Below, piece by piece: positions 157 through 10,778 of a stretch of DNA of 64,000 nt. Origin of the DNA: Acidobacteriota bacterium (GTDB lineage Bacteria; Acidobacteriota; Terriglobia; Terriglobales; Acidobacteriaceae); the NCBI GenBank assembly GCA_003225075.1, contig QIAP01000061.1, positions 1-64,000 of the forward strand. The letters run 5' to 3'. Every line of letters begins with the position of its first letter. The first letter of the stretch is position 1. The translations under genes were made by a program, and so were the position numbers. Below the pieces are notes generated by a model, which had not been told where the DNA came from, did no database searches, and saw only the letters and a list, made by a program, of their open reading frames with translations.

Positions 157-2436
157 ATGAGATCGATCATCTACCTTGTACTCCGCTACTGCCTGCTACT
201 GGCGCTGGTCCCCATTTTGTTCGCGGAGAATGGCCCTGGCAGCCCTGATCGGTCAGCAGCGATCCCGCGGATACAACAGCCACCGACACTCGAGGACTTC
301 CTCACCATGGAGCCCAGCCCACGTATAGCTGGCAAAATGGCAAGGATCGAGGGATTTCGGCAATGGACCCCCCACGATGGGCAGCCTGTAAGCCAGCGCA
401 CCATCGCCTATTTAGCGTACGACGACAAGAACTTCTATGCGGTGTTCGTCTGTTTTGATAACGAGCCGGGCAAGATACGCGCTCACCTCGGTCATCGTGA
501 CGACATCTGGGACGACGACTTTGTGGATATCTGGATTGATAGCTTCCACGATCACCGCCGCGCTTACGAGTTTGTGGTCAATCCACTGGGCCTGCAAGGG
601 GACGGCCTCGCCACCGACAACAGCGAAGACTTCAGCTTTGACACAGTTTGGGACTCACGCGGGCAGATCAACCAGCAGGGATGGGTCGCTTGGTTCGCCA
701 TCCCGTTTAAATCGCTGCGCTTCACCAAAGCTCCAGTCCAGACATGGGGCATCACTCTGCAGCGCGAAATCCATCGCGCCAACGAGAAATCATTCTGGCC
801 ATATACTACGCATCGCGAAGAAGGAATCATCTCCCAGAATGGCGAGATACGAGGACTGGAAAATATTTCGCCTGGGCGCAATATGCAATTCATACCCTAT
901 GGCCTGTTTCGCTCTTTCCGTGGCCTCGATCTACGGGATCCTAACGTTCCAAGATTCAATTCGCGTGCGGCAAAGTTCGATGGCGGCCTGGACTCTAAGT
1001 TCATCATCAAGGACAGCCTGGTCCTGGACACTACCATCGAACCAGATTTCAGCCAGGTTGAATCCGACGAACCGCAAGTGACCGTCAGCCAGCGCTTTGA
1101 AGTCTTCTTCCCCGAGAAGCGGCCGTTTTTTCAGGAGAATTCGAATTATTTCGATACGCCCATAAATTTATTTTTTACGCGCCGCATTGTTCACCCGCAG
1201 GTTGGATCGCGCCTCACCGGCAAGATAGGAAAATACTCGCTGGGCATTCTGCTGGCCGACGACCGTTCGCCCGGATTGCTGGTTCCAGATAACGATCCGC
1301 TAGCCAATAAACGCGCCTATTTCGCCATTGGGCGGATCAGCCGCGACATCCTGAAGGACTCCAACATCGGATTGATGTACACCGATCGCGAGTTTGATGG
1401 CAGTTTCAACCGCGTCGGTGGTGTGGACGCCACCATCCGGCTCTCGAAGACTGTGGTCAGCAGGTTCCAGGCGGTCGAGAGTTCCACCCTGCAGACCGAC
1501 GGCACATATCTAGCCGGCCCTGCATTTGAAGGTGACATCAGCCGAAATGGGCACAGCTTCAACGCCGATCTTCACTACAGGGGGCGCAGCGACGGCTTCC
1601 GCACCGAGACCGGCTTCGATCCTCAGCCCGATATTCACAACGAGGACCTCTTCGTCTCTTACAACTTCTGGCCCAAAAAGTATCTTCTGCGCTGGGGACC
1701 GCAGTTTGAGACTTATCGTATCGACGATCATGAAGGCAATCGCCTGAATTGGGGCTACATTCCGGAATTCTTTTTCGAGATGCCGCGACAGACTCGTCTA
1801 ACCCTGGGCTACGCTGAGGAAGCCGAACTTCTCCGTCCGCGCGATTTCTCAGTGCTGGCGCAAAACAAGGATTTTCTCCGCAATACCAAGCTCTTCTTCT
1901 TCCGCACGGCGCCCACCAAGCAAATTATCTTTGATATCGACTGGCGCTGGGGTCGCCGCATCAACTACGCGCCGCCGGCCGGCGTCGATCCGTTCCTGGC
2001 GCGACGAAACAGCGTGACCACCGATCTCAGCATCATTCCCACCAGTCACCTGCGCATCGACAACACCTACCTTTGGTTTCGCCTTGGTGACTTCAACGAC
2101 CGTGGTGCTGCCTTCAACAACCACATCATTCGCTCAAAGTGGAATTACCAATTCACGCCCAAGCTCTCGGCCCGCATCATTATGCAGTATTCCGCCGTAC
2201 TCGCTAATCCGGCCTTCACCAGCCTGGCCACTACAAAGAACCTGAATGCGGATTTTCTCATCTCTTATCTCGTCCACCCCGGCACCGCAGTATATGTCGG
2301 CTATAACAGCAACCTTCAAAACCTGGATCACAGCTTGGCTCTCGATCCCGACGGAAACCTGGTCCGCACGCGAGACTCCTTCATCAACGACAGCCGGCAG
2401 TTTTTCGTGAAGGTGTCCTACTTATTTCGGTTTTGA
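157..2436 (+). CDS. DUF5916 / CBM9-like outer-membrane protein
   Basis: 759 residues. A hydrophobic signal peptide covers about residues 1-23. Residues ~55-240 look like the CBM9-type beta-sandwich that precedes DUF5916 domains (ladder with DDDFVDIWID and the AYEFVVNPLG segment). The remaining ~500 residues are alternating aromatic/polar strands ending in VSYLFRF; a terminal aromatic residue is typical of outer-membrane beta-barrels. Family knowledge: DUF5916 proteins are surface or outer-membrane proteins of unknown ligand, often linked to glycan or peptide use in Bacteroidota and Acidobacteriota. The gene stands alone on the plus strand and converges on the cupin gene 34 bp downstream. Start chosen at the first ATG giving a good signal peptide; the ribosome binding site is weak. 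Substrate unknown. Confidence 0.8.
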   Translation: MRSIIYLVLRYCLLLALVPILFAENGPGSPDRSAAIPRIQQPPTLEDFLTMEPSPRIAGKMARIEGFRQWTPHDGQPVSQRTIAYLAYDDKNFYAVFVCFDNEPGKIRAHLGHRDDIWDDDFVDIWIDSFHDHRRAYEFVVNPLGLQGDGLATDNSEDFSFDTVWDSRGQINQQGWVAWFAIPFKSLRFTKAPVQTWGITLQREIHRANEKSFWPYTTHREEGIISQNGEIRGLENISPGRNMQFIPYGLFRSFRGLDLRDPNVPRFNSRAAKFDGGLDSKFIIKDSLVLDTTIEPDFSQVESDEPQVTVSQRFEVFFPEKRPFFQENSNYFDTPINLFFTRRIVHPQVGSRLTGKIGKYSLGILLADDRSPGLLVPDNDPLANKRAYFAIGRISRDILKDSNIGLMYTDREFDGSFNRVGGVDATIRLSKTVVSRFQAVESSTLQTDGTYLAGPAFEGDISRNGHSFNADLHYRGRSDGFRTETGFDPQPDIHNEDLFVSYNFWPKKYLLRWGPQFETYRIDDHEGNRLNWGYIPEFFFEMPRQTRLTLGYAEEAELLRPRDFSVLAQNKDFLRNTKLFFFRTAPTKQIIFDIDWRWGRRINYAPPAGVDPFLARRNSVTTDLSIIPTSHLRIDNTYLWFRLGDFNDRGAAFNNHIIRSKWNYQFTPKLSARIIMQYSAVLANPAFTSLATTKNLNADFLISYLVHPGTAVYVGYNSNLQNLDHSLALDPDGNLVRTRDSFINDSRQFFVKVSYLFRF

Positions 2437-2470
2437 GGTTATGAAAAACTCAGAAGGTCTTTGGTGTCCT

Positions 2471-2965
2471 TTACTTGCTCTCTCTCGATTTCGGATCGTT
2501 CCGGGCGTCGAAGTAGTGCGTGTCGGTTGGACCATAGCCGGAAATTTCGACAATTACAGCTTCGGCGTCCGTGCGCGCAAAGTGATTGTGACCTATGCCA
2601 CCCGGTTCCGAGTACACGCTTCCCGGGGGAAGCGTCTTCAGAGACTTGGCATCGAAATGATCGCCATAGCCGAAGTGCCACTCCCCCGAAACAACTGTTG
2701 CTATGCGATCGTCCCGGTGCGAATGTGCCTGGATCGTGGTGTGCGGGGAAACGAACAACAGAATCGTGTAAAAGTTCGGTCTTGAAGGATCACCGAAGAC
2801 CACTTTCGTATGTACCCCGGGGAGGCCGGAACTCCCGATCTGATTGCTGTCGAGCGCGCTCGCCCGAATTTCTTGAGGCGTCATGCGCATCTCGGGAAGA
2901 GATTGAGAGATTGCAGCAGAAGGTGCTGATAGAAACACGGCGGCGATAACCAATCTCATAGACAT
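2471..2965 (-). CDS. Secreted cupin-domain protein
   Basis: 164 residues with an N-terminal signal peptide (about residues 1-20). The body is a small single-domain cupin: the first motif contains HSHRDDR at about residues 80-86, giving two histidines for a metal site, followed by the Gly-rich turn VVSGEWHFG; the second motif contains PGGIGHNHF. Cupins of this size bind a metal and act as small-molecule dioxygenases, isomerases or simple binding proteins; nothing here selects among these. A GAGGGG ribosome binding site lies 7 bases before the ATG. The next minus-strand gene upstream (alpha/beta hydrolase) ends 59 bp away, so the two could be co-transcribed. Export to the periplasm is inferred from the signal peptide. 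Confidence 0.75.
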   Translation of the reverse strand: MSMRLVIAAVFLSAPSAAISQSLPEMRMTPQEIRASALDSNQIGSSGLPGVHTKVVFGDPSRPNFYTILLFVSPHTTIQAHSHRDDRIATVVSGEWHFGYGDHFDAKSLKTLPPGSVYSEPGGIGHNHFARTDAEAVIVEISGYGPTDTHYFDARNDPKSRESK

Positions 2966-3024
2966 TGAGGGACCCCTCGCGTTCTAGCTTTACGCATCAA
3001 CGCAAGGAGCGTGTTGGCCGGATC

Positions 3025-3951
3025 TCACAAAAATTTCTGCAGAGCCTCCGTCGTCTCCTTAGGCCGCTCTTCCAGCACCCAGTGTCCGGTATCCTTCAAC
3101 ACTACGACGGTTACATCCGAAGCGACTAACTTCATCTGTTTTGCTAGCGCTTCGCCGAGGGCTTTCTCGCCGCCAATCACTAGCACCGGCATTGGCAGCT
3201 TGGTCTGAGAGAGCTGAGCGAAATCCTTTGCGGCCTGTTGGAACGAAACGAAGTAGGCCCACCCAGCGCGCATCCGTCCGGGCCGGGAATAGGCCGCGGT
3301 GTAGGCTTTCCGATCCGCTTCAGGAAGGGAGCGCGTCTTATCGGCGGCAAAGTCGTTCCAGAAGTGCTCGAAGTATGTGCGCTCGCGACCTTGAACCAGG
3401 GCTTGGGGTGTAGGACCGTTAAAGCGGAAGTGCCAGAAGCCAGGATCGTTGTAAATAGTTTCCCACTCACCCACGCCCGGAAGAAAGGCGTCCATCACAA
3501 CAAGTTTTTGAACCTCCGCCGGGAATTGTGCGGCGTAGGCATAGGCGACCATGAGGCCGATATCATGACCGACGACTTCTGCTTTCTGGACGCCGAGCGA
3601 GCGGGCAAGCGCATGAATGCGTATGGCGGACGTCTTCATATCCAGGCCATCCGCCGGGATAGCCGAATCTCCTATCCCAGGCAGGTCCGGCGCGATCACG
3701 GTAAATCGTTCGGCGAGTCCTGGGATGATCGGCTTCCACATGAGCGAGGTCTCGGCATAACCGTGCAGCAAAATGAGCGGCGTGCCGTGGCCAGCAGTCA
3801 GGTAGTGCAACTTAACACCATCGACCTCTGCGTCACGCGAGGAGATGGTCGTGCCTGCGGGATTTGCATATGTTGTGGCAAACAGTCGGGTGGCCAGAAA
3901 AAGTAAGCTGAAGACGGCCAGGCTTACGCAATGTTTCAAAGCTCGCTTCAT
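3025..3951 (-). CDS. Exported alpha/beta hydrolase (epoxide hydrolase / haloalkane dehalogenase type)
   Basis: 308 residues from the ATG at 3951, which has AAAGGA 7 bases upstream; a longer open frame to 4152 lacks such a site. Residues 1-~25 form a signal peptide. The fold shows LLLHGYAET (oxyanion region), the nucleophile elbow VVGHDIGLM with Asp instead of Ser, and the C-terminal GHWVLEERP histidine. An Asp nucleophile is characteristic of epoxide hydrolases and haloalkane dehalogenases rather than esterases. Family knowledge therefore predicts hydrolysis of an epoxide or a carbon-halogen bond through an alkyl-enzyme ester; the substrate cannot be read from sequence. The gene sits between a membrane protein and a secreted cupin, all on the minus strand. 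Confidence 0.8.
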   Translation of the reverse strand: MKRALKHCVSLAVFSLLFLATRLFATTYANPAGTTISSRDAEVDGVKLHYLTAGHGTPLILLHGYAETSLMWKPIIPGLAERFTVIAPDLPGIGDSAIPADGLDMKTSAIRIHALARSLGVQKAEVVGHDIGLMVAYAYAAQFPAEVQKLVVMDAFLPGVGEWETIYNDPGFWHFRFNGPTPQALVQGRERTYFEHFWNDFAADKTRSLPEADRKAYTAAYSRPGRMRAGWAYFVSFQQAAKDFAQLSQTKLPMPVLVIGGEKALGEALAKQMKLVASDVTVVVLKDTGHWVLEERPKETTEALQKFL

Positions 3952-4042
3952 GAAAAAATCCTTTGTTAGAGAGATAGTCGTGGCTTTACTGACGCCACGT
4001 TTCGGGGCGGCGGAAACTCGATCCCAGTCGCGGGAATGTTCG

Positions 4043-4597
4043 TTAGTGCCCTTTTTCTCTTCGCTTTTGACGGTGCTCCACAGCAATGTAAGTGACCGTG
4101 TCCCAGGCATTGTGAATCCCGACGAACAAAAGCAAGAGCGAGGTCGTAGCAATCACGAATAGAGACGCCGTGGGATGCCACGCGAGCAGGATCGCTGCCG
4201 CTAGCAATCCTGCGTACCCGACCAGGGGGAGTCCGGCATACCAGAACCAATCCTCGGCGTCCGGGGCATAGCTGGTCTGCCGCCGCGCGTGCCTGATGAC
4301 CACGATCGCGTACGCGACTCCCGCCGCTCCGCAGGCCTCCAAGACGAACCCAGCATTGGAGAGCGCTTGCCACGGCGCGCTCAAGACCGCCGAGACCAGC
4401 AGGACGGCGCAGAAGTGTACCACCGTCGGCGTACCGAAGGCGCGAATTTCCAGCATGCCACCCGCCGATTGCGCTTCAGCGACCAGAGCGATCACTACGA
4501 ACTGCAGCCCGGTCAATGCTCCGGCCGACGAGCCGACTATGACATAGAAACTTTCCCAACGCGCAAGCGGTGAGAGCGCGGCTTCTTCCATGATCAT
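4043..4597 (-). CDS. Four-to-five-helix integral membrane protein, unknown function
   Basis: 184 residues from the ATG at 4597, chosen because GAGG lies 5 bases upstream and because the longer frame (to 4762) would overlap the next gene. About five hydrophobic stretches are visible (around SFYVIVGSSAGALTG, HFCAVLLVSAVLSA, GAAGVAYAIVVI, GYAGLLAAAILLA, FVIATTSLLLLFVG). The C-terminus is short, basic and cytosolic-looking. I do not recognise the family. It is flanked by two alpha/beta hydrolase genes on the same strand, which says little about its role. Confidence 0.7.
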   Translation of the reverse strand: MIMEEAALSPLARWESFYVIVGSSAGALTGLQFVVIALVAEAQSAGGMLEIRAFGTPTVVHFCAVLLVSAVLSAPWQALSNAGFVLEACGAAGVAYAIVVIRHARRQTSYAPDAEDWFWYAGLPLVGYAGLLAAAILLAWHPTASLFVIATTSLLLLFVGIHNAWDTVTYIAVEHRQKRREKGH

Positions 4598-4686
4598 GGC
4601 ATCCTCGCTTGAAGACACTGCTGCCCGCTGACTGTGATAAACGAACTCCCCGGCCTCGCAACAAACGCGAAAGGCCAGGCACTCGG

Positions 4687-5526
4687 TTACGCTGCTGCTT
4701 TCGCGCTGCGCTTGAAAAAGGTAAGCAGTTCCTCGTTGACCTGGTCTTTGAGGGTCGAGCACATGCCGTGTGGCGCCCCCTGATAGATTTTCAGTGTAGC
4801 TCCCTTAACAATCTTGGACGAGAGCATGGCGGAGGCACCGATGGGCACGATCTGATCGTCGTCCCCATGGAGGATGAGCGTTGGCACATCGAACTTCTTG
4901 AGATCTTCCGTGAAATCCGTTTCCGAGAAAGCCTTAATGCAGTCGAAGACAGCTTTGTGTCCAGCGATTATCCCCTGTAACCAGAACGAGTCGCGCAAAC
5001 CTTGCGAGACCTTGGCGCCTGGCCGGTTGGCGCCGTAGAACGGCGCGCTGAGATCTTTGAAGAATTGCGAACGATCGGTGAGGACTGTGGCGCGAATCTG
5101 GTCGAATGCGTCCATTGGCAGGCCGCCGGGATTGGCGGCGGTTTTCAGCATCAACGGCGGCACCGCGCCGATCAGCACGGCCTTGGCGACACGTTTGGTG
5201 CCGTGGCGACCAATATAGCGGGCGACTTCGCCGCCACCAGTAGAGTGACCGACATGGATCGCGTTTTTCAGGTCAAGCGTTTCAACCAGGGTTGCGAGAT
5301 CGTCGGCGTAGGTATCCATTTCATTGCCGTCCCACGGCTGGCCGGATCGGCCATGGCCGCGGCGATCGTGCGCGATGCAGCGGTAGCCGCGGTCGGCCAG
5401 GAACAGCATCTGGTCTTCAAACGCGTCCGCGCTCAGTGGCCAGCCATGACTGAAGACTACCGGCTGTCCTTTGCCCCAGTCCTTGTAATAGATCTGCGTG
5501 CCATCTTTTGTCGTGATCGTGCTCAT
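4687..5526 (-). CDS. Alpha/beta hydrolase, cofactor-free haloperoxidase/arylesterase type
   Basis: 279 residues with no signal peptide. The catalytic triad is visible: Ser in GHSTGG (about residue 96), Asp in HGDDDQIVP, His in GAPHGM near the C-terminus. The N-terminus ([17 protein letters not shown]) and the HDRRGHGRS segment are hallmarks of the non-heme chloroperoxidase/arylesterase family. Family knowledge: these enzymes are serine esterases that can also form peracids and so halogenate in vitro; the physiological substrate is usually unknown. A strong AAGGAG ribosome binding site sits 7 bases before the ATG. The neighbouring upstream locus on the same strand is the scrambled membrane-protein gene at 5614-6037. 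Confidence 0.85.
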
Positions 5527-5613
5527 AAGATTTCTCCTTAGATTTTGGTTGGTAGAAGTTGAAGCCGCGCCGGACCTCCTCTCATCGGGCCGGCAAACAG
5601 GAAATACGACCGA

Positions 5614-6037
5614 TCAAGCCGTCTTCACAGGTTCGTTCCGGAACTTTTTCGTTGCGAGAATGGTAAGCGCGACGAAAATCACCAGAACAACGAGCTGCGC
5701 AACCAGGAATGGTGGCTCTTTCTGCGTTGGCGCCAGCTCTTTCAGTGCCGGCACTTTCTCGAAGGCCTGGACCACCCCGACGAAGACATTGAGATAGAGC
5801 GCAACTGAGGTGCTGACCACGTCGGGCTGCTCGCCGGGAAGCGACTCAACGGCTGGACCGCCCTTTTTCTGGCGACTACAGTGGCAACGAGTGTGACCGG
5901 GTTCGGCTTCCCGTTCGACCACCTCTTGCCCTCCCATAAAGTCGGCATCATATCGTAGATCCGACGCCAAGCCCCGGCGAGATGGAACACGTAGCGCGCA
6001 AGGATTGCAATCGCGAGCACCAGCAACGGATGTCGTC
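5614..6037 (-). pseudogene. Scrambled small membrane-protein gene with an inverted internal block
   Basis: Three pieces of what reads as one ~140-residue four-helix membrane protein are present but out of order. Minus strand 5614-5820 encodes the C-terminal 68 residues (starting VVSTSVALYLN, ending EPVKTA and a stop). Minus strand 5955-6026 encodes a 24-residue helix (LLVLAIAILARY...WRRIY). Plus strand 5821-5955 encodes a 45-residue stretch (VGLLAGKRLNGWTALFL...SHKVGIIS). Read in the order plus-block, helix, C-terminus they join seamlessly in frame and resemble a family I remember (no database checked). As it stands no single frame encodes it. The expected N-terminal helix is not seen. An assembly error is possible. 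Confidence 0.6.
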
Positions 6038-6321
6038 ATGCCGAAAATCATGATGAACGTCCTCTCGGAACTCACTTCTCTTGCTTTCTAGCTCTGACAC
6101 ATCATCACGCATTCCCATGCAACCGACTCCCAAGCGCGAGACGATCGCGACGTATGAACAAGATCACACTGTCCATGTTTATACCGATTTAGATGGCTGC
6201 ACCCACGCTCGGTTCCTTTTTTTCCGATTCGCCCAGCAGGCCCGCCCACTATCACGCTTCACTGACGTTCCCGCGCCCCTGCGAACCCCCGCGAGTGCCA
6301 AAAATGCTACAGTAAAATTCG

Positions 6322-7374
6322 ATGGCCGCTCCCCAATCGCGCTTTGTTCGGGCCTGCAGGGCACAACCTGTGGATACCACGCCAGTGTGGTTCATGCGTC
6401 AAGCCGGACGCTACATGCCCGAGTACCAAAAGATTCGCAAGAAACATTCACTGATCGAGATCTGCAAAAACCCGGCGCTCGCTGCTGAAATAACGATTAC
6501 CGCCGCCGAAGTTCTGGGCGTGGATGCGGCAATTATCTTCGCCGACCTGTTACTTCCGTTGGAAGTCATGGGCCTCCCGTTCCATTTCTCGGCTGGGGAA
6601 GGACCGGTAATTGAACATCCCATTCGCGACATCACTGCCATCGGGCGCCTCGGCACTGACCACGCCTCTGACCTCGGATATGTGTCCGAAGCAGTTCGCC
6701 TGGTCTCTAAACACTTCGAAAACCGCTTGCCGCTGATTGGCTTTTGCGGCGCTCCGTTCACGCTGGCAAGCTACATGATCGAGGGCGGAGGGTCGCGCAA
6801 TTACACAAATACGAAGAAGATGATGTACTCCTCACCTTCAGCCTGGGATGAACTAATGTGCAAGCTGGTCGCAGTGCTATCTCAATATACAGCGCAGCAA
6901 GTGGCGGCAGGGGCAGATGCTATTCAGGTATTTGATAGCTGGGTAGGATGCTTGAGTGTTGGGGACTACCGGCAATACGTTCTCGCACATACCACTGAAC
7001 TGGTAAAACGACTGCGGAGGACCGGTGTACCGGTCATTTATTTTGGCACCGAAACCACCACACTATTGCCATCGATGAAAGAAACTGGGGCCGAAGTCAT
7101 CGGACTCGACTGGCGCATCCCTCTCGACGACGGTTGGCGCAGCATAGGCTTCCAGGGCGCGGTTCAGGGGAATCTGGATCCTGTAGCGCTATTCGCTGAT
7201 TGCAAGGAGTGGCAGCCGCGCGCGGAGGAAATTTTGCGTCGCGCAGCCGGACGTCCGGGACACATCTTTAACCTGGGTCACGGCATTCTGCCGGAGACGC
7301 CAGTCGAGAATGTGAAGGCCCTGGCTGAGTTCGTACGCGAACGTTCAGCGAAAATCGCTGTGACTTCCGGCTAA
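6322..7374 (+). CDS. hemE: Uroporphyrinogen decarboxylase
   Basis: 350 residues, the usual length. Cytosolic enzyme that removes the four acetate carboxyls of uroporphyrinogen III to give coproporphyrinogen III. Visible hallmarks are PVWFMRQAGRYMPEY at residues 21-35 (substrate-binding Arg residues), the IIFADLL segment with the conserved catalytic Asp at residue 75, FCGAPFTLASYMIEG, and the C-terminal NLGHGILPETP. It is the first gene of a plus-strand heme cluster with the ferrochelatase 26 bp downstream. The ATG has no clear Shine-Dalgarno sequence. Upstream 6038-6321 shows nothing I can call with confidence. Confidence 0.96.
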   Translation: MAAPQSRFVRACRAQPVDTTPVWFMRQAGRYMPEYQKIRKKHSLIEICKNPALAAEITITAAEVLGVDAAIIFADLLLPLEVMGLPFHFSAGEGPVIEHPIRDITAIGRLGTDHASDLGYVSEAVRLVSKHFENRLPLIGFCGAPFTLASYMIEGGGSRNYTNTKKMMYSSPSAWDELMCKLVAVLSQYTAQQVAAGADAIQVFDSWVGCLSVGDYRQYVLAHTTELVKRLRRTGVPVIYFGTETTTLLPSMKETGAEVIGLDWRIPLDDGWRSIGFQGAVQGNLDPVALFADCKEWQPRAEEILRRAAGRPGHIFNLGHGILPETPVENVKALAEFVRERSAKIAVTSG

Positions 7375-7399
7375 TGCTGTGGGCCCAATTCACCATCCA

Positions 7400-8332
7400 A
7401 TGTCTACTCGATCCAAAGCCGAAAAAACAGCGGTCCTGCTGCTGGCTCACGGCACTCCGGAGTTGGTGGACGATGTTCCCGAATTCTTACGGTACGTCAC
7501 CGGAGGGCGTCCTCTACCACCGCAGTCTGTCGAAGAGATCAAGCGCCGATACGGGGTGATCGGCCAATCTCCGCTGAACGAGATAACTATGCAGCAGGCG
7601 AAAGCGCTGGAGCGGGAGGTAGGCCTGCCTGTGTATGTCGGTATGCGCAATTGGAAACCTTTCATCGCGGACGTGGTCAAGAGGATTGCGGCGGACAGCG
7701 TTGCACGTACGATTGCGATCTGCATGGCCCCGCAGAATTCGCGAACCAGCGTCGGACTTTACCGCCGTGCAGTGGTGGGCGACAACGGTACCCCTTTCGC
7801 GCTCGAGTTTATTGAATCGTGGCACGATCACCCCCTATTGGCGGAGGCATTCGCCGACAGACTGCGGGCTGGTTGGGAGATGGCATGCCGCGACTCGCTG
7901 GTAAAAATCCCCATTATCTTCACGGCGCACAGCGTCCCCCAGCAGACCATCGCGGCCGGTGATCCATACGACAAACAGGCATGTGAAACTGCGGAATTGG
8001 TGGCCTCGGTGGCGGACATCGCGGCTGAAGATTGGAGTTTCGCATTCCAAAGTCAGGGAGTGTCCGGAGGCCCGTGGATTGGACCAACCGTGGAACATAC
8101 TATTCTGCGCTTGAAAGAAAAAGGACACCGCGGAGTATTTATTCAGCCGGTAGGATTTCTTTGTGACCATGTTGAAGTGCTCTACGATATTGACATCGCA
8201 TTCCAAGACTTCGCGACCAAACACGGAATGCGATTGTGGCGGGCGGAGTCATTGAATGACTCACCGAAGCTGATTGCGGCCCTCGCCGACTTGGTTCGTT
8301 CCCGGGTCGAGCGCGGGAAAGGGAAGAGCTAG
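7400..8332 (+). CDS. hemH: Ferrochelatase (HemH/CpfC)
   Basis: 310 residues from the ATG at 7400; a GTG at 7379 in the same frame would add seven residues. Inserts ferrous iron into porphyrin (protoporphyrin IX or coproporphyrin III). Hallmarks are LLLAHGTPE at the N-terminus, the FTAHSVP motif carrying the metal-binding His, QSQGVSGGPWIGP, and CDHVEVLYDID carrying the catalytic Glu. No C-terminal iron-sulfur extension is present. Which porphyrin it uses depends on whether the organism follows the coproporphyrin-dependent route, which the window does not settle. It lies between hemE and hemG and is likely co-transcribed with them. Confidence 0.93.
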   Translation: MSTRSKAEKTAVLLLAHGTPELVDDVPEFLRYVTGGRPLPPQSVEEIKRRYGVIGQSPLNEITMQQAKALEREVGLPVYVGMRNWKPFIADVVKRIAADSVARTIAICMAPQNSRTSVGLYRRAVVGDNGTPFALEFIESWHDHPLLAEAFADRLRAGWEMACRDSLVKIPIIFTAHSVPQQTIAAGDPYDKQACETAELVASVADIAAEDWSFAFQSQGVSGGPWIGPTVEHTILRLKEKGHRGVFIQPVGFLCDHVEVLYDIDIAFQDFATKHGMRLWRAESLNDSPKLIAALADLVRSRVERGKGKS

Positions 8333-8434
8333 CGGAAGCGCTTGTGTGACATCTAACACCAACCGATGTTTTCATCAACACGCGGAATGTAGAAACTTGG
8401 GAGCATCCACCGTAGCTGTGGGCTGCGTCCAAAC

Positions 8435-9865
8435 ATGAAACGTATAGCGGTCATCGGCGGAGGAATTTCCGGCCTGTCCGCGGCCTTTAGTCTTGAACAA
8501 AATCGCCGCGCCGGTGCTCCGATCCAATATGTACTCTACGAAAGCAGCCCTCGGCTCGGGGGTGTCCTCCTTACCGAGCGCGTCGACGGATTCGTAATCG
8601 AAGCAGGGCCTGATTCCTTCCTTACAGAAAAGCAATACGCCGCGGACCTCTGCCGTCGAGTCGGTCTCGCCGATCAACTCATCACATCGAATGATGCGGA
8701 ACGTAAGACTTACATCCTGGTCAAAGGCAAGCTGGTCGCCATTCCTGAGGGACTGATGTTCATGGTGCCGACCAAGATTCTGCCCACCGTCTTCTCCCCT
8801 CTTTTTTCTTTGGGAACGAAGCTGCGCGTAGCACGCGAGTGCTTTCAAGCTCGACGGAAAGCCGACCTAGATGAAACGGTCGCCGCCTTCTTCGAACGTC
8901 ATTATGGTCGAGAAATGGTTGAACGAGTCGCCGATCCATTGCTCTCCGGGATCTACGGCGGTGAGGCTTCCCAGCTAAGCGTTCGGGCCGTTTTGCCGCG
9001 TTTCGTGGAGTTGGAGAGTACACATGGAAGCCTGGGCCGTGCAATGCTGGCGTCACGTCGCAAAGCGGAAAGCACTCCTGCACGCCCCTTGTTTACTTCT
9101 TTGAAGAGCGGAATGCAGCAAATGGTGGATGCCATCGTAAACGATCTTTTGCCGGCTACCGCCCGTCTCAACACGCGGGTGGACGCAATCCACAGACGGG
9201 AAGTTGATTGGCTCGTATCAGCGGGCGCGAAGTCCGATACTTTCGATGCTGTAGTCGTTGCAATTCCTGCGCAAGCGGCGGCTAGACTGCTGCAGGCGAA
9301 CAGCCCTGAACTCGCCTCGGAGCTGGCCAGTATCCATTACGGTTCCTCCGTTACCGTAGCCTTGGGGTACGATCAGGAAGTCCGCTCTTACCTGCCGCCG
9401 GGGTTCGGCTTTCTTGTGCCTCGCAGCGAAGGCAAATCTCTCCTCGCCACCACATTCGTACACCAGAAGTTCCCTTATCGCGCTCCCGAGGGCCAAGCCT
9501 TGATCCGATGTTTTCTCGGGGGCACGAGCAACGAAGATATACTCCAGATTTCAGAAAAAGAGATCGTGCAAATCGTGCGGAACGAATTGCGAGAGATCCT
9601 CGGCATCCACGCCGCGCCTTTACTGTCGCGCGTCTACAGATGGAAGAGTTCGATGGCGCAGTACGAAGTCGGACATCTCGAACGACTGGAACGCATCAAG
9701 AACCTCCGAAACCAACTTCCGGGTCTGGCTCTCGCCGGTAATGGGTACGATGGCATTGGTGTGCCGGATTGTGTTCGCTCAGGAATGTCCGCCGTTTTGC
9801 ATGTATTCGCTTCTCTCGGTTTAGCTACAACGGAACCTGCGGCGAAGGTCTCTCAGACTGCTTGA
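8435..9865 (+). CDS. hemG: FAD-dependent protoporphyrinogen/coproporphyrinogen oxidase
   Basis: 476 residues, standard for the HemY-type (FAD, oxygen-dependent) enzymes. The N-terminus has the Rossmann dinucleotide fingerprint VIGGGISGLSAAFSLE, followed by LGGVLLTERVDGFVIEAGPDSF, and the C-terminus has the second FAD signature LALAGNGYDGIGVPDCVRSG. It removes six electrons from the porphyrinogen to aromatise the ring. It is the third gene of the hemE-hemH-hemG set, 102 bp after hemH. I use the symbol hemG in the HemY/CgoX sense, not for the unrelated E. coli flavodoxin-like enzyme. Protoporphyrinogen versus coproporphyrinogen preference cannot be told from sequence by eye. Confidence 0.92.
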   Translation: MKRIAVIGGGISGLSAAFSLEQNRRAGAPIQYVLYESSPRLGGVLLTERVDGFVIEAGPDSFLTEKQYAADLCRRVGLADQLITSNDAERKTYILVKGKLVAIPEGLMFMVPTKILPTVFSPLFSLGTKLRVARECFQARRKADLDETVAAFFERHYGREMVERVADPLLSGIYGGEASQLSVRAVLPRFVELESTHGSLGRAMLASRRKAESTPARPLFTSLKSGMQQMVDAIVNDLLPATARLNTRVDAIHRREVDWLVSAGAKSDTFDAVVVAIPAQAAARLLQANSPELASELASIHYGSSVTVALGYDQEVRSYLPPGFGFLVPRSEGKSLLATTFVHQKFPYRAPEGQALIRCFLGGTSNEDILQISEKEIVQIVRNELREILGIHAAPLLSRVYRWKSSMAQYEVGHLERLERIKNLRNQLPGLALAGNGYDGIGVPDCVRSGMSAVLHVFASLGLATTEPAAKVSQTA

Positions 9866-9898
9866 CCATTACCTGCGTAACCCGAGTAACCAAATACT

Positions 9899-9919
9899 GT
9901 GCAGAAACAAACTCTGCAC
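9899..9919 (+). other. Short hairpin after hemG
   Basis: GTGCAGA at 9899-9905 pairs perfectly with TCTGCAC at 9913-9919 around a 7-base loop. No T-run follows, so it is a weak terminator candidate at most; it may instead be an mRNA-end hairpin between hemG and the next gene. Confidence 0.35.
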
Positions 9920-9959
9920 GCGCGTGTTATTAGTGATCGAGAAGTCGAGGAGATTCTTG

Positions 9960-10778
9960 ATGCGCGTCCGGAGTGGCACGATTTTATCGCTCACGATCTT
10001 GTTAGTTTGCCTGGCTTGGGGACAACAGGAGAACCAAAAATCCCAGAGAACTCAAGGCGATATGGCGGGCATGCTTATGTCTGGCGACTCCGCGTCAGAC
10101 ACGTCCCCGATGAAGGATACGCTGACCATGAGCAGTGAGGGCAGTGCACACGCCATGAATTCCATGCAAGACCATCACCTGAATATGGGTCCGCATATGA
10201 TAATAACGACACTGCGCGATCCGAACCCCGGGGATGAAAATCGCGCGGATCAGATCGCCGTGGCTGCCCGGGAAACCGCAGACAAGTACAAGGATTATCA
10301 AGCTGCTCTGGCAGACGGATACAAGATCTTCCTGCCCAACCTGCCGCAAAGGCAATATCACTTTACGAACAACCGGTACGCCTTTGAAGCCGTGTTCCGT
10401 TTTAACCCCGAACATCCGACATCGCTGCTCTACCAGAAAAACGGTGACGACTACAAGCTGATCGGTGTCATGTATACCGCGCCCAAAAATGCCAGCGAAG
10501 ATCAACTTGACCAGCGAATCCCGCTCAGTATTGCCCAATGGCACGCCCACGTGAATCTGTGCATGCCGCCTCCAGATCGGAAGCGGGAATTGTGGGGGCC
10601 GCACACGAGTTTTGGACTTACCGGTTCAATCTCAACCAAAGAAGATTGTGATGCCGCCGGTGGCAAATTCGTGCCCCAGGTTTTCGGATGGATGGTGCAC
10701 ATGTATCCGTTCGAGCAGAAGCCGGCCGATATCTGGTCGGTCGAGCGGCAAGCGCACCACCATAACCACGGAGACTAG
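9960..10778 (+). CDS. Secreted His/Met-rich protein, probable metal-binding
   Basis: 272 residues from the ATG at 9960, preceded by GAGGAG at an 8-base spacing; an upstream in-frame start at 9924 lacks one. Signal peptide at about residues 1-22. Residues ~35-75 are rich in Met and His (DMAGMLM, HAMNSMQDHHLNMGPHM). The folded region follows, with invariant-looking WHAHVNLCMPP, HTSFG and GWMVHMYPF, and the protein ends in HHHNHGD. I recognise this as a conserved hypothetical of soil bacteria but know no assigned function. Met/His clusters are typical of copper-handling periplasmic proteins, so copper or another soft metal is the inferred ligand. It follows the heme genes by 94 bp on the same strand, which may be chance. 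Confidence 0.7.
   Translation: MRVRSGTILSLTILLVCLAWGQQENQKSQRTQGDMAGMLMSGDSASDTSPMKDTLTMSSEGSAHAMNSMQDHHLNMGPHMIITTLRDPNPGDENRADQIAVAARETADKYKDYQAALADGYKIFLPNLPQRQYHFTNNRYAFEAVFRFNPEHPTSLLYQKNGDDYKLIGVMYTAPKNASEDQLDQRIPLSIAQWHAHVNLCMPPPDRKRELWGPHTSFGLTGSISTKEDCDAAGGKFVPQVFGWMVHMYPFEQKPADIWSVERQAHHHNHGD

Follow-up and report, generated by a model that had tools for sequence, protein, structure and literature searches.

Internal scrambling of a small membrane-protein gene in an acidobacterial contig and its possible origin

The first 64,000 nucleotides of an acidobacterial contig (the window) carry a small membrane-protein gene whose pieces lie on both strands within a few hundred base pairs. 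This arrangement raises the question of what the gene looked like before it was cut up, by which route its pieces came to their present places, and whether the change occurred in the organism or in the assembly.

Present layout and ancestral order

Read along the minus strand, the scrambled gene consists of four segments: N (6051-6028), B (6026-5955), an inverted A (5824-5955 of the plus strand) and C (5820-5614). The native start is kept in N, with an SD-like GAGAGGAC and an ATG at 6051 that opens the reading MIFGMTTS; including the SD-like stretch (GAGAGGACG, 6066-6058), this minus-strand segment spans 6028-6066, and its 5' end matches that of intact relatives. B (5955-6026, minus strand) encodes the helix segment LLVLAIAILARYVFHLAGAWRRIY and, in native orientation, now abuts N. 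Block A, about 133 bp on the plus strand (5823-5955, GLLAGKRLNGW...HKVGIIS), is flipped and relocated behind B, and C (5614-5820, minus strand) provides the native C-terminal half, VVSTSVALYL...NEPVKTA, together with the stop codon. A, B and C were assigned by translation and by placement on relatives, and the translations confirmed the positions and strands at which the initial annotation had reported the three peptides. The gene is present as a single copy in its genome, with no intact paralogue there.

The joins from N to B (6027-6028), where helix X of about 66 bp is absent, and from inverted A to C (5821-5822) are each ambiguous by 1 nt. At the join from B to inverted A (5954-5956), script reconstruction revealed a 3-nt microhomology, CGT, which reads as ACG on the minus strand. 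Block A had been described as ending at codon borders; this does not hold strictly, since every join is ambiguous by 1-3 nt.

Intact relatives preserve the ancestral order N-X-A-B-C, in which an 8-residue start is followed by the first helix X, block A, helix B and the C-terminal half C. The joined A-B-C peptide matches 80 loci at 48-78% identity, far above chance. Among 100 related genomes it is matched in 20, one of them the window's own. When the pieces were placed separately, they were found on one strand and collinear in 98 of 99 loci, the sole exception (L101) failing only on a weak match to the short helix B. The proposal that the three pieces form one protein in this order is borne out by these matches, and intact copies of the gene are present in about a hundred other bacteria. 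The window's gene itself is no full-length collinear match to the family, as it reads N-B-A'-C (A' denoting the inverted block) and lacks X. The net change is thus the conversion of N-X-A-B-C to N-B-A'-C within one small membrane-protein gene. The scrambled arrangement is absent from the relatives (99 loci placed, 100 surveyed), and among 512 frames of the 100 loci the only gene split between both strands is that of the window. Flags raised at other loci in the split-gene survey stemmed from use of the window's own chimeric frame as a query.

The deletion of X and the retained start codon are additions to the initial annotation, which had missed both. Intact relatives share the 5' end (MIFGMTTS... 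in L013, GAAAGGACACACATCATG in L004), and most open with MI(L/F)GM(T/S), followed by about 22 first-helix residues and then block A. Between the native start and block A, the window's gene has lost about 22 codons corresponding to helix X, whose sequence in relatives reads TFTxVHVLISLVGIxSGLVVxF. A search of the rest of the window and of the genome did not turn up X, a weak test given the short query (33 residues).

A reconstruction script was given the window's own N, A, B and C, with the X of L013 standing in for the lost helix, and returned N+B+rc(A)+C as an exact account of the 300 bases observed. Sixteen placements are equivalent: the join can slide by 1 nt at N/B, by 3 nt (ACG) at B/A' and by 1 nt at A'/C. 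The A/B and B/C borders each served twice, with a tolerance of about 3 nt; by a rough estimate, jump points chosen independently over about 300 bp would show such double use in about 1 in 1,000 to 10,000 cases. No inverted repeats or mobile element were found at the block edges, just short matches away from the borders, for example a 9-nt pair at 5830-5838/5973-5981.

Age of the event and genomic setting

The pieces of the scrambled gene contain no stop codons, frameshifts or other decay. Compared with 15 near relatives, they show median dN and dS values of 0.171 and 1.07, and the relatives compared with one another show 0.206 and 1.08. The pieces retain every one of the 38 positions that are conserved in 90% or more of relatives, and the window's branch length of 0.14 is ordinary (end-branch median 0.22). 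With these 38 constrained codons unchanged and about 84 nonsynonymous sites, neutral drift since the event is estimated at less than about 3.6%. The absence of decay points either to a very recent event or to a faulty assembly; if the assembly is right, the gene seems to have suffered a local DNA accident only very recently.

The genomic neighborhood places the pieces at home. The scrambled gene is followed by an intact alpha/beta hydrolase (4687-5526, minus strand; Pfam PF00561), a conserved downstream neighbor that is adjacent in many relatives, and then by genes for a 239-aa membrane protein, which has no Pfam match, and a 375-aa hydrolase. An identical set of four genes, unchanged in order and orientation, occurs in L013, which indicates that this is the native locus rather than a stray fragment. 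A genome of the same genus (G001) carries hemE and lacks the family of the scrambled gene, and the operon is probably accessory. Window positions 2439-6283 have no counterpart among the stretches found in G001. At 6322-9865, hemE (identified by Pfam) and two further genes are collinear with G001; judging from their sequences, the two look like ferrochelatase and protoporphyrinogen oxidase.

Alternatively, the organism's gene could be intact and the scrambling a local error in a metagenome-type contig, an unlikely explanation that nevertheless deserves serious weight. The genome is a 259-contig assembly, the pieces are as undecayed as those of an intact, living gene, and metagenome assemblies often hold local errors, 13 of which were reported for a single 1.13-Mb genome (PMC7111523). 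However, the joins share only 1-3 nt, far below a k-mer overlap, with no repeat there, and X is lost rather than misplaced. In addition, the 43.3 kb of the contig that align to G001 contain no other inverted gene piece, and no second gene encoded on both strands emerged from the survey of the 100 loci. Three matches to G001 that appeared moved are distant similar stretches, not scrambles. If the arrangement is an artefact, the error is invisible to standard quality measures, by which the genome is 97.6% complete and 1.53% contaminated.

Routes from the ancestral to the scrambled order

The initial annotation had proposed either two inversions or a cut-and-flip of one block. The cut-and-flip describes the net result correctly; nested inversions, in which AB would be flipped, B flipped back and X lost, fit poorly. 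They arrive at the correct end state, but they require the new join at the end of B to break a second time at precisely the nucleotide of the first break, or a precise deletion of X', and neither step could have been mediated by inverted repeats, as the borders have none. We regard this sequence of events as improbable.

The leading explanation, held tentatively, is that a fold-back template switch placed a second, inverted A behind B and that the original A was later lost together with X. A replicating polymerase at the B/C border would jump onto the other strand at the A/B border, aided by the shared ACG, copy A backwards and rejoin at its point of departure. The insertion would yield N-X-A-B-A'-C, a palindrome with arms of about 133 bp and a 72-bp spacer, and the unstable hairpin would then drop the original arm plus X by breaking at the stem-loop border. 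Reuse of both borders would follow from the return of the switched polymerase to its departure point and from cleavage of the hairpin at the stem-loop border. We infer the intermediate, the order of the steps and the enzymes from the end states.

This fold-back path is favored by the exact reconstruction, the microhomologies of 1, 3 and 1 nt, the block edges free of repeats and the undecayed pieces. Block A reads as the reverse complement of ancestral sequence close by, as a template switch would produce. Inspection of the reconstruction solutions revealed no single four-point event that accounts for the whole change, since the forward-copied B between N and A' requires a further deletion. The 3-2-1-4 switch pattern, which leaves one inverted repeat, belongs to the two patterns that make up the majority of template switches in great apes (PMC7954356), and interrupted palindromes trigger cleavage and rearrangement in Escherichia coli (PMC3315005). 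Counting against the fold-back path, about 133 bp is, in our judgement, a rather long arm for a short-range switch, and the genome has no match to SbcD over the curated cut-off, for which reason SbcCD was rejected as the hairpin nuclease. None of the 100 loci surveyed holds the palindromic intermediate.

A single event of breakage and religation would reach the same end state. Three double-strand breaks (N/X, A/B and B/C) would free XA and B, the X end would be trimmed by about 66 bp, and end joining would give N-B-A'-C. All bases except X are kept and the overlap at the reused borders is 0-3 nt, as expected for physical ends. The genome also encodes Ku, with a match that clears the curated cut-off, as well as three domains of ATP-dependent ligases; these demonstrate the capacity for end joining (NHEJ) only, and would serve either religation or the second step of the fold-back path. 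Such an event would nonetheless demand three simultaneous breaks within about 300 bp and retention of a 72-bp fragment, and we consider it rather unlikely.

Product, significance and comparison with known systems

The family is an uncharacterised helical membrane protein of about 165 aa found in Acidobacteriota, Pseudomonadota and others, with no Pfam or NCBIfam match over the cut-off and no sequence match in the PDB. A confident structure prediction for the intact homologue from L005 (pLDDT 87.8) has helices at residues 7-33, 39-57, 66-87, 93-120, 122-127 and 134-160 and returned no fold match with E <= 0.001. Judged on this model, the first three helices are predicted to be lost or garbled by the scramble and the last long ones to stay. 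Conserved adjacency to the hydrolase is the sole hint at a function. Members of the family are also present on contigs assigned by binning to Verrucomicrobia, Rokubacteria and Betaproteobacteria (L017, L023, L025, L042 and others), and some of these sit near acidobacterial ones in the tree, which would reflect either lateral transfer or mis-binning.

After the scramble, a 145-aa frame (5614-6051, minus strand) still runs open between the native start and stop codons. It joins the native first 8 residues to 69 out-of-frame or antisense residues and the native C-terminal 68. An open frame of this kind arises by chance in about 5% of cases (0.15 x 1/3) and is thus no evidence of function; the scrambled gene is almost certainly dead. 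Its openness is the one feature that would suit a selected new protein or a programmed, reversible inversion within the gene, both of which are very improbable. The block edges carry no inverted repeats, the arrangement occurs in no relative, and flipping back could not restore a gene in which the block was moved as well as flipped and X was lost. Gene callers may still accept the scrambled gene as a plausible, false protein of 145-153 aa.

Two other loci show damage to the neighboring hydrolase. On the contig of the closest homologue (L005), which belongs to another lineage, about 257 bp at 3446-3703 are inverted, comprising hydrolase residues 3-67 and the upstream region, and the remainder of the operon is absent up to an SDR-type gene. 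This inversion with its adjacent deletion is independent of the window's event and affects the next gene of the same operon. A hydrolase remnant in L044 (2536-2829) runs from residues 81-127 directly into 214-270, an internal deletion.

Most likely, the window's event is an ordinary gene-killing rearrangement, though an unusually fresh and precise one. If it is real, it represents a fully readable bacterial micro-rearrangement whose borders, resolved to 1-3 nt, precede decay and whose mechanism is testable. A broader possibility, which we think quite unlikely, is that recurrent fold-back copying followed by loss of a palindrome arm scrambles genes in Acidobacteria at a scale of 50-300 bp; such a process would have been overlooked because its outcome resembles an unannotated gap.

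Literature searches covering inversions within genes, template switching and bacterial microinversions yielded no directly comparable bacterial case, but several known systems share features with this one. Template-switch mutations under the four-point model likewise combine an inverted nearby copy, a few nucleotides of microhomology and complex local change (PMC7954356), whereas here the original block and X were deleted, two steps are needed and the block measures about 133 bp. Microhomology-mediated break-induced replication also generates several joins of 1-3 nt and inversion plus deletion (PMC2621351); in the present case no copy-number gain is left and the borders were reused almost exactly. 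Invertons, including intragenic ones, place an inverted segment inside a coding gene (PMC11892184), but the segment described here has edges without inverted repeats, was moved, and cannot be reverted because part of the gene is lost. Finally, the gene resembles ordinary bacterial pseudogenes in being inactivated in one lineage and kept in relatives, and differs from them in that scrambling alone inactivated it.
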